NCBI RefSeq assembly: GCF_000942395.1
Contig: NZ_LN812103.1
Location: forward strand, 687,394-751,393
DNA length: 64,000 bases
DNA from: Risungbinella massiliensis
Lineage (GTDB): Bacteria > Bacillota > Bacilli > Thermoactinomycetales > Thermoactinomycetaceae
Direction: 5' to 3'
Position numbers and translations under genes: made by a program. Position 1 is the first letter of the stretch. Every line of letters begins with the position of its first letter. Below the pieces are notes generated by a model that was given only the letters and a program-made list of their open reading frames with translations, was not told the DNA's origin and made no database searches. Positions 950-62,706 of this stretch are shown here, in pieces.

Positions 950-1711
950 TTGGTTCCCTTACTATTACATGTTCTCTTCGCTGTTTTTTTAATTGGAATA
1001 CAAGGAGGGAGTATCCGGTTGAATGATTGGATAGTGTATTTGGCAGAGTGGATCACCAATCCAGCTGTGATGTCTTTATTACTCTGGATCGGATTGATAG
1101 GTTTAGTAGTTGAGTTACTCGCTCCAGGCCATCTACTAGGTGGAATTGTGGGTGTAGTGGCCTTTAGTATCTACTTTGCTGGACACTGGATAGCAGGAAC
1201 ACCAAATGAATACGCACCTTATATTTTTGTAGCAGGACTGTTGCTATTTGGTTTAGAAGCACTGGTTCCAAGTTTTGGATTTTTTGGAATATTGGCGACG
1301 GTAGCACTAGTCTATTCGGTCGTAGTGGTTGCTGAAAGCGTATCTATTGGTTTTACCGCTTTAGGTATTGGAATAGGTGGTACTATTTTATGTCTATGGA
1401 TTTTATATCGGTTTTTTGGATTCCGAACTACATGGAGCAGGATTATTCTCAAGGATACCCAGCGTAATCAAGAAGGATTTACCTCCGCAAGGGATCGGAC
1501 CCATCTGCTAGGGAAAATAGGCCGAACAGTTACCCCGTTACGTCCATCTGGTTGGGCAGTCATAGAAGATAGACGAGAAGATGTAGTAAGCGAGGGGGAA
1601 ATGATTCCAGCACAACGTCGGGTGAAGGTAGTACATGTGGAAGGCTCTCGTGTGGTTGTGCGATCGATCTTAGAAACGGAGATAGTAGAGTCAGAGGAAG
1701 AAAAAATTTAG
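950..1711 (+). CDS. NfeD family membrane protein
   Basis: 253 residues, apparently starting at TTG. About five hydrophobic segments lie between residues 5 and 155 (for example VELLAPGHLLGGIVGVVAF, the NfeD signature region), followed by a soluble C-terminal domain (about 170-253) with the GxxGxxxTxLRPSGWAVIED pattern of the NfeD OB-fold. NfeD proteins are encoded next to flotillin-like or SPFH proteins and are thought to work with them in membrane microdomains; here floA follows. The start is uncertain because the ribosome site is weak. This form lacks the N-terminal ClpP-like protease domain of long NfeDs. Confidence 0.88.
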   Translation: MVPLLLHVLFAVFLIGIQGGSIRLNDWIVYLAEWITNPAVMSLLLWIGLIGLVVELLAPGHLLGGIVGVVAFSIYFAGHWIAGTPNEYAPYIFVAGLLLFGLEALVPSFGFFGILATVALVYSVVVVAESVSIGFTALGIGIGGTILCLWILYRFFGFRTTWSRIILKDTQRNQEGFTSARDRTHLLGKIGRTVTPLRPSGWAVIEDRREDVVSEGEMIPAQRRVKVVHVEGSRVVVRSILETEIVESEEEKI

Positions 1712-1734: not shown

Positions 1735-1876
1735 TTATAAATTGCATAATTAGCCCGAAGCCAGAGGTATTCTCCTTTTGAGATCTGACTATGAGCGATA
1801 GAGAGCCGGAAGTAGATCAAAAGCGGGAAAACCGGCAACGTGCCAACGTTCAACTGAGATTAATGCAACAAGTTAT
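1735..1876. repeat. Interspersed repeat, copy A (MITE-like / IS-end remnant)
   Basis: A stretch of about 130-140 bases between nfeD and floA that matches, in inverted orientation, the sequence at 24812-24951. Shared blocks include agccagaggt, tatgagcgatag and agcgggaaaaccggc. Its edges carry the family ends ttgcataatta (left) and attaatgcaacaag (right), which are roughly inverted copies of each other. No credible ORF is present. It occupies most of an otherwise unusually long gap (260 bases) inside a compact operon, as expected of an insertion. It could be a non-autonomous transposable element or a relic of IS ends. Confidence 0.75.
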
Positions 1877-2000
1877 AAATTTATAAAGTAATTTCCTGAT
1901 TGGTTAGGTAATATTTCATAAAATAAACTCTTCTGCTACGGTATTTCTAGGATTTTCTAGTGCTTAATATGAGATGATAAAAGTAAAAGGGGAGATTCGT

Positions 2001-2975
2001 TTGGATAGTTTATTAGGCTATGTTGTGATCGGTGTTCTTGCCGTTATATTCTTGGCCATTTTCTTTTCGTTTGTACCAGTTATGCTGTGGATTAGCGCTT
2101 TTGCTTCTGGGGTCTATGTACGATTGACCACACTGATCGGAATGAGGTTGCGACGTATTGTTCCAGCACGGATTGTCAATCCATTGATTAAGGCTCGAAA
2201 AGCTGGATTAGAAGTCGATATTACCCAATTGGAAACTCATTATTTGGCTGGAGGAAATGTCGATCGGGTAGTAGATGCCCTGATTGCAGCTCAACGTGCC
2301 AATATCGACCTCGTGTTTGAACGTGCAGCAGCAATTGATCTAGCTGGACGTGATGTATTACAAGCCGTTCAGATGAGTGTCAATCCAAAAGTGATCGAAA
2401 CCCCTTTGGTCTCTGCTGTGTGTAAAGATGGGATCGAAGTAAAAGTAGTAGCTCGCGTCACCGTGCGTGCTAATATCGACCGACTGGTAGGTGGAGCAGG
2501 TGAAGAGACGATCCTAGCTCGGGTTGGCGAAGGGATCGTCACAACCAACGGTTCAGCTGAAAGTCATAAAGTAGTTTTAGAAAATCCAGATTTGATCTCG
2601 GAAACTGTACTTGGTAAAGGTTTGGACGCAGGTACTGCATTTGAAATTCTGTCGATTGATATTGCCGATATCGATGTAGGAACCAATATTGGAGCGAAGT
2701 TACAAACTGACCAAGCAGAGGCAGATAAGCGAATTGCGCAAGCGAAAGCAGAAGAGCGTCGTGCGATGGCGGTTGCAAGGGAACAAGAGATGAGTGCCAA
2801 AGTGGAAGAAATGCGTGCCAAAGTGGTAGAGGCAGAAGCAGAAGTACCACTTGCTCTTGCCGAAGCTTTACGGTCTGGAAAAATGGGAGTTATGGACTAC
2901 TATCAGTTGCAAAACTTAGAAGCAGATACTAAAATGCGTCGTACTATTGGCAATACGGAGGCTGACGAGTCCTAA
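2001..2975 (+). CDS. floA: Flotillin-like protein FloA
   Basis: 324 residues. One N-terminal membrane segment ([20 protein letters not shown]) is followed by an SPFH-like domain with the nearly invariant stretch [20 protein letters not shown] and a Glu/Ala-rich coiled-coil tail ([20 protein letters not shown]). FloA scaffolds functional membrane microdomains in Bacillus. I choose the TTG at 2001, seven bases after aaggggag, over the ATG at 1974: the protein then begins MDSLLGYVV, close to known FloA starts. The nfeD neighbour supports the call. Confidence 0.95.
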
Positions 2976-24682: not shown

Positions 24683-24811
24683 AGCGAATTGTATTATAAA
24701 TCCAACTGAAAAATTACATCTAGACTTCGTTTTGTAGTGACAAAAACCTTTCGGCTGAAAACTAGTTCCAACTTAATATAACCTAACTATTAGAAGTTTT
24801 AGCTTAAATAT

Positions 24812-24951
24812 AGCTTGTTGCATTAATCCAAGTTAAACGTAGGCGCACCGCCGGTTTTCCCGCTTATGATCTGCTCCGGTTCCCTATCGCTCATAGTTGT
24901 ATCTCCAAAGGGGAAAACCTCTGGCTTAGGGCTAAATTATGCAACATGCTC
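24812..24951. repeat. Interspersed repeat, copy B (MITE-like / IS-end remnant)
   Basis: A 140-base element between hppD and the M1 aminopeptidase gene. Ends agcttgttgcat (left) and atgcaacatgct (right) are imperfect inverted repeats. Its reverse complement aligns along its length with 1742-1872. The hexamer taaata occurs just outside both ends (24805-24810 and 24952-24957), a candidate target-site duplication. The longest reading inside is a 23-codon ORF starting MSDREPEQ that is not kept in copy A. Confidence 0.78.
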
Positions 24952-24965
24952 TAAATAGAATATAC

Positions 24966-25010
24966 AAACGAAAGCATCTGGGTCCAGATCGGACCCAGAT
25001 GCTTTCGTTT
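24966..25010. terminator. Long perfect hairpin, possible terminator
   Basis: A perfect 20-bp inverted repeat (24966-24985 and 24991-25010) with a 5-base loop agatc; arms begin aaacgaaagcatctgggtcc. It lacks a long T-run after the stem (ataac follows), so it may be a weak terminator, an mRNA-end stabiliser or a relic of another element. Confidence 0.6.
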
Positions 25011-25106
25011 ATAACAGGCAAAGCGTTAATTGGAAAATTTTTTCATACTTTTCCCTTGATTGGGTCAAGCTACTAGCGAAATGAAACTCAATCAGGAGTG
25101 ATACGT

Positions 25107-62556: not shown

Positions 62557-62569
62557 TATTTACACAGAG

Positions 62570-62632
62570 AGCTTGTTGCATCATTAATTCGCGAACCAAG
62601 GTGTTTCACGGAATTTTTTTATGCAACAAGCT
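62570..62632. repeat. Short palindromic element, copy C (ends only)
   Basis: Perfect 12-bp inverted repeats agcttgttgcat (62570-62581) and atgcaacaagct (62621-62632) around 39 bases. The ends match those of copies A and B, but the interior does not. It follows the DUF421 pseudogene directly. It may be an internally deleted element or a hairpin terminator that shares the ends by descent. Confidence 0.65.
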
Positions 62633-62706
62633 TTTATTATTCAATACTAAATCATGGAGATGGTTGTTGTCTAAGATTCCAAAATGTTTTGTTGCTTCTT
62701 TTACAG

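Follow-up and report, generated by a model that had tools for sequence, protein, structure and literature searches.

A dispersed 140-bp repeat of Risungbinella massiliensis: a very probable type II MITE family and its candidate insertion sequence driver

In the Gram-positive Bacillus cereus group, the elements known as bcr1 are about 150 bp long, recur many times on the chromosome and are flanked by short duplications, which are of 5 bp (TTTAT). The repeat of Risungbinella massiliensis analyzed here resembles bcr1, as the latter is generally described, in size, duplications and copy number; its duplication, however, is 6 bp rather than 5 bp. In type II MITEs, similarity to an insertion sequence (IS) is confined to the terminal repeats (PMC10969869). 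Compared with the bacterial type II elements of that review, our family is alike in being short, in having terminal inverted repeats and target duplications, and in its many copies; nothing categorical separates it from them, and its sequence, its host and the 6-bp duplication are its own.

We conclude that the repeat is very probably a type II MITE family: its short copies are dispersed, they carry terminal inverted repeats and target duplications, and their ends match those of IS elements in two other genomes (G091 and G032), whereas the interior, by inspection, does not. From this anatomy we infer mobility as a MITE, and the family is presumed to be immobile now. It is apparently a new family of an ordinary, known kind, and searches of the available collections found it in no other genome.

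Copies, ends and insertion sites

Two copies, A and B, lie in the 64-kb stretch of DNA that was analyzed (the window; Table 1). The sequence-only reading had described them as one repeat in opposite orientation, and a search with window positions 1735 to 1876 bore this out: copy B was matched on the opposite strand with 84% identity over query positions 8 to 142 (E = 3.5e-34). Both are members of a family dispersed throughout the genome, which comprises 3,421,198 bases (3.42 Mb) in 7 contigs. At E ≤ 10, the same query gave at least 42 matches in this genome, a lower bound that includes copy A itself and in which some matches are two pieces of one copy. The central core, with up to 3 mismatches allowed, occurred at 49 places (reversed-pattern control, 0), and the two end cores, 36 to 60 bases apart, occurred at 8 further places that did not overlap with these (control, 0). 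Similarity added 10 diverged copies absent from both pattern lists, derived from 11 clusters of which two are probably pieces of one element. The family therefore totals 49 + 8 + 10 = 67 places, one of which (window position 62569) has only the ends in common; the end pattern DAGCWTGTTGCATNA occurred 69 times in the genome. A dispersed copy number above about five had been named beforehand as a sign of mobility, and the genome-wide count far exceeds it.

Table 1. Features of the window, by position (MITE denotes the class to which the repeat very probably belongs).
Feature	Position	Strand	Description
nfeD-like gene	950..1711	+	5' of copy A; name from the sequence-only annotation
Copy A, likely left target duplication	1738..1743		TAAATT, by eye; overlaps the damaged tip
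Copy A	1742..1875	+	MITE whose left terminal repeat has lost ~7-9 bp; in the nfeD-floA gap
Copy A, right target duplication	1876..1881		TAAATT, by eye
floA-like gene	1974..2975	+	3' of copy A; name from the sequence-only annotation
Copy B, target duplication	24805..24810		TAAATA, exact 6 bp (row L014)
Copy B	24811..24951	-	Complete 141-bp MITE; 94% to consensus, positions 1-140
Copy B, target duplication	24952..24957		TAAATA, exact 6 bp (row L014)
Third element	62569..62633	+	65 bp; same terminal repeats, GAGCTTGTTGCAT / ATGCAACAAGCTT

The family ends are GAGCATGTTGCAT and ATGCAACAAGCTA, and the terminal inverted repeats span about 13 to 17 bp; 94.4% of the end-helix cells were paired in 36 aligned copies. 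Alignment of 30 copies in one orientation gave a main unit of 140 bp, GAGCATGTTGCATAATTAGCCC...GATTAATGCAACAAGCTA. A longer class of 147 to 170 bp, mostly about 160 bp, contains an additional ~22 bp, a stretch like CCCTCAGGACAGGCAGGACAGGC. Short forms of 59 to 86 bp retain both ends, and those of 70 bp that were aligned lack the central palindrome. The dimensions proposed from the sequence alone are thus refined: the unit is 140 bp, its outer ends are GAGC... and ...GCTA, and the duplication is 6 bp. Elsewhere in the genome (L094, contig C6, ~941.9 kb), a stretch of about 240 bp has one GAGCATGTTGCATAAA and one TTTTGCAATAACCTC end; the CCCTCAGGACAGGCA stretch within it resembles the additional segment of the ~160-bp forms.

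Copy A matches positions 8 to 140 of the 140-bp consensus at 87% and has the right end ATGCAACAAGTTA; the TAAATT on its left touches or overlaps its GCAT. Its place in the nfeD-floA operon was as read earlier, between the two genes. Copy B has its left end, GAGCATGTTGCAT, at position 24951 on the minus strand and its right end at 24811, so that the forward strand of the window reads TAGCTTGTTGCAT (from 24811) and ATGCAACATGCTC (to 24951). Its inverted ends and the candidate TAAATA on both sides had been noticed from the sequence alone, and the TAAATA copies were seen to flank it directly. The interior of the third element had no BLAST similarity to the 140-bp family, and this element had no target duplication, its flanks differing at 5 of 6 bases.

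Target duplications were analyzed in 47 copies, namely 46 of the 62 similarity clusters and the 65-bp element at window position 62569. The 16 clusters omitted, which include copy A and two clusters taken as pieces of one element, had one end missing, mutated or unplaced; for rows L045, L046, L097 and L047:1739 and for the 65-bp element, the borders were taken from the terminal repeats alone. With the borders fixed at GAGC and GCTA, 21 of the 47 copies had an exact 6-bp duplication, compared with a mean of 0.75 and a maximum of 5 such matches when the right flanks were shuffled 500 times. Six more had a 6-bp duplication with one mismatch, seven an exact 5-bp duplication and one a duplication at 7 bp; in the remaining 12, neither an exact duplication of 5 to 7 bp nor a 6-bp duplication with a single mismatch was found. 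The 21 exact targets were AT-rich, most commonly T-A-T at positions 1 to 3 and T-A at positions 5 and 6. These many copies with conserved ends and 6-bp flanking duplications agree with the proposal, made before any search, of a small non-autonomous element family.

When the flanks were joined, only 2 of the 47 sites lay inside an open reading frame (ORF) of at least 100 amino acids, as called mechanically, whereas of 940 points placed at random in these stretches, 671 did. The neighboring genes were codirectional at 24 sites, divergent at 13 and convergent at 8. A terminator-like hairpin (window positions 24965 to 25011, up to 20 counted pairs) directly adjoins copy B, and targeting of terminators was examined for this reason and rejected: 6 of the 47 insertions were within 100 bp of a hairpin followed by a T-run, as were 93 of 940 intergenic points chosen at random (P = 0.46). 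The genus is represented by a single genome, and an exact empty site was not found.

A candidate driver and its fossil

We propose that the non-coding 140-bp unit would have been spread to about 65 sites, most of them intergenic, by a DDE transposase that acted in trans and made a 6-bp staggered cut. The enzyme would most likely have come from a 1.1-kb IS with DUF772 and DDE_Tnp_1 domains and GAGCTTGTTG(C/A)AT ends. A search of 398 genomes of the class for this transposase gave matches at E ≤ 1e-20 in 7 of them. The single contig of G091, a class-level relative, contains three open IS copies of 1099 bp each, without stops; all three have the ends GAGCTTGTTGAAT...ATTCAACAAGCTC, and their duplications are TGCATT, TGAAATA and TATATA (6, 7 and 6 bp). 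In G032, pieces of a DUF772 + DDE_Tnp_1 transposase adjoin the end GAGCTTGTTGCATAAATCAAA, of which 20 bases (AGCTTGTTGCATAAATCAAA) recur in several MITE right ends; the flanks of the end pair there (L084, 1536 and 2585) do not match. In G009, an open 311-amino-acid homologue (L106) has just one recognizable end; incomplete copies at the edges of contigs have GAGG- or GACC-TTGTTGCA ends. The MITE shares its GAGCTTGTTG(C/A)AT ends with the IS elements of G091, G009 (which also has GAGG- and GACC- tips) and G032, and it resembles those of G091 in their duplications of 6 to 7 bp; unlike the MITE, the IS carries a transposase gene.

The family of this IS is left unassigned, because the G091 and G009 proteins scored below the curated cutoff of every NCBIfam model listed, the best scores being 69.7 of 270 for IS1182, 66.1 of 140 for IS5_2, 72.7 of 130 for IS982 and 47.8 of 115 for IS4_1, and because three of the five plasmid records with relatives of the transposase, at 34 to 35% identity, are annotated as ISNCY. 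The nearest plasmid relative (44% identity) has no annotation there.

The earlier expectation of a transposase gene between GAGC-TGTTG-type ends held in the relatives but not in R. massiliensis itself, where neither a 183-amino-acid query (E ≤ 0.01) nor a 311-amino-acid query (E ≤ 10) detected a transposase of this type; the query that was negative in this genome did recover G009 and G091. At about 387 kb on contig C6, beside a lone end, 65 bp of the R. massiliensis sequence align with three IS 3' ends of G009. Beyond the terminal repeat, the three alignments scored 41, 38 and 47, whereas the highest scores among 1000 shuffles for each were 27, 29 and 25, and the fossil reads KAPWNR-stop, as do the 3' ends in G009. 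This fossil lies at the end of a reading frame (L093, 2021 to 2692) that, by eye, resembles a serine recombinase and has last codons extending into the terminal repeat.

Because no transposase of this type was detected in the genome, the link to a driver rests on the common ends, the duplication length and the 65-bp fossil. On these grounds, a G091-type IS with DUF772 and DDE_Tnp_1 domains probably moved the MITE copies. Assemblies can drop IS copies, and since this one is in 7 contigs, an intact copy may still be present. It is also conceivable, although unlikely, that a transposase of a different family, recognizing similar TGTTGCA-type ends, was responsible. Such ends do recur, since a repeat in one Candidatus Saccharibacteria genome with an unrelated interior has the core TGTTGCATAATTAGCC, and the absence of a detected DUF772 + DDE_Tnp_1 transposase from the genome would fit; however, the GAGC tip, the TGTTG core and the 6-bp duplication jointly match the G091 IS, and the fossil points to the former presence of an IS of the G091/G009 type.

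Of the 23 family genomes searched, one, that of R. massiliensis, contained the whole unit among the matches listed at E ≤ 0.001, a count that is a lower bound. A young 140-bp copy had no DNA match at E ≤ 0.01 in the plasmid and phage collections. When the contigs of 84,980 species were scanned for exact matches to the two ends at MITE spacing, a scan that may omit the records of this genome, four stretches were found, all in the Candidatus Saccharibacteria genome RGIG524. The four copies of that repeat (L059 to L062) are 125 to 147 bp including the end cores and have TTGTTGCATAA-type ends. Of their two ends, one has TGTTGCATAATTAGCC and the other GATTTATGCAACA in common with our family, but their tips are mostly of the GGC type rather than GAGC, and BLAST found no similarity between the interiors. 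Among 42 genomes of the order, the end pattern DAGCWTGTTGCATNA had 26 hits in G020, 5 in G032 and, apart from the present genome, 0 to 4 in each of the remaining 39. Most of ten loci in G020 (L073 to L082) carry another MITE-like repeat, with GAGCATG.../GAGG-type ends and the interior AACCTAGATCATTCCTAGAT...; by eye, exact 6-bp duplications were present in 2 of the 10 (TGAATA in L077 and TTCTTA in L082). The convergent ends 1.85 kb apart on contig C12 of G020 (L073) were considered as the borders of an autonomous copy, but the interval holds other genes and each end starts its own MITE-like copy. In the literature searched, no paper joins MITEs with Thermoactinomyces, and the papers listed for the end sequences look unrelated, which does not prove that the family is unpublished.

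Other explanations of the repeat

Some bacterial repeats are described as containing RNA motifs that act on mRNAs (PMC2229807), and, given its palindromic interior, our repeat might be read as a conserved regulatory RNA or as a hairpin that is transcribed. Folded as DNA, copy L004 and copy B each gave a z score of -2.91 (none of 200 shuffles was equally stable); for the opposite strand of L004 the value was -2.37. In the 36 aligned copies, 90.7% of the cells of the L004 hairpin were paired (equalled by 5 of 500 shuffles), and its double-change cells and covariation score were equalled by 19 and 24 of 500 shuffles, respectively. Kinship inflates such figures, and by the tool's own warning, related rows can yield them without any structure; we have therefore not taken them as evidence for an RNA. 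The pair counts as a whole are mixed, and the other comparisons argue against this reading: among 500 shuffles, 144 reached the number of double-change pairs (5 of 46) and 249 that of pair types, and RNAalifold found 1 of 19 pairs compensated. DNA folding was weak in copy A (z = -1.44) and in a 70-bp form (z = -0.48), as was folding as RNA with flanks (-1.83 for copy A; -1.35 and -1.40 for the strands of copy B), and Rfam gave no match at the repeat in the window or, at E ≤ 1, around a young copy. Moreover, the neighboring genes show the mixed orientations given above, and an RNA would leave the duplications unexplained. An RNA function is not supported, and we regard it as very unlikely. One of two promoter-like sites at copy B (24836 to 24807, minus strand) begins inside the repeat, with 1.1 expected in shuffles.

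Two further explanations concern the origin of the copies. The sequence-only reading had allowed that A and B might be two remnants of the same IS ends. The terminal repeats are indeed of the IS type, and one fossil of an IS 3' end is present in the genome, but this proposal fails on the interior, which in the 36 aligned copies is uniform from end to end and which, by inspection, is unlike that of the IS beyond about 20 bp from the ends; in addition, 21 of the 47 copies have one duplication on both borders. That the copies are leftovers of both ends of a full IS, rather than a separate small element, is therefore extremely unlikely. The elements are also reminiscent of the REP/BIME-type palindromes moved by a RAYT transposase, in that they are short, partly palindromic, intergenic and present in many copies. 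To our knowledge, however, REPs make no target duplication, and the exact 6-bp duplications make the chance of this origin almost negligible.

The nfeD-floA spacer and the significance of the family

Copy A makes up 134 of the 289 nucleotides between nfeD and floA. The floA start candidates are ATG at 1974 and TTG at 2001, and homologues of the floA-like product were found in 16 other genomes of the family at 78 to 87% identity and in one more at 56%. Measured to the TTG, the spacer was the longest among the 18 loci compared, which included this genome and one locus without an nfeD match; in 16 relatives it ranged from -31 to 118 nucleotides. Around copy A, one promoter-like and one terminator-like site were found, both outside the repeat.

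We tentatively suggest, as a possibility somewhat short of an even chance, that an unnamed IS group (DUF772 + DDE_Tnp_1, 6-bp duplications, GAGC/GAGG-TGTTG ends) has repeatedly spawned separate MITE families in one order and that, in this genome, some 65 copies have outlived the driver, of which a fossil remains. The MITEs in question would be the 140-bp family described here, the other one in G020, and single elements with other interiors in G004 and G021.

In conclusion, ideas on how MITEs work are unchanged by these results, which supply a very probable MITE family, a candidate driver and a likely fossil of that driver for a little-studied bacterial group. For annotation, they account both for about 65 repeats in intergenic sites and for the unusual length of the nfeD-floA spacer of R. 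massiliensis, and the ends and the duplication length are defined well enough for a direct test of transposition in trans.
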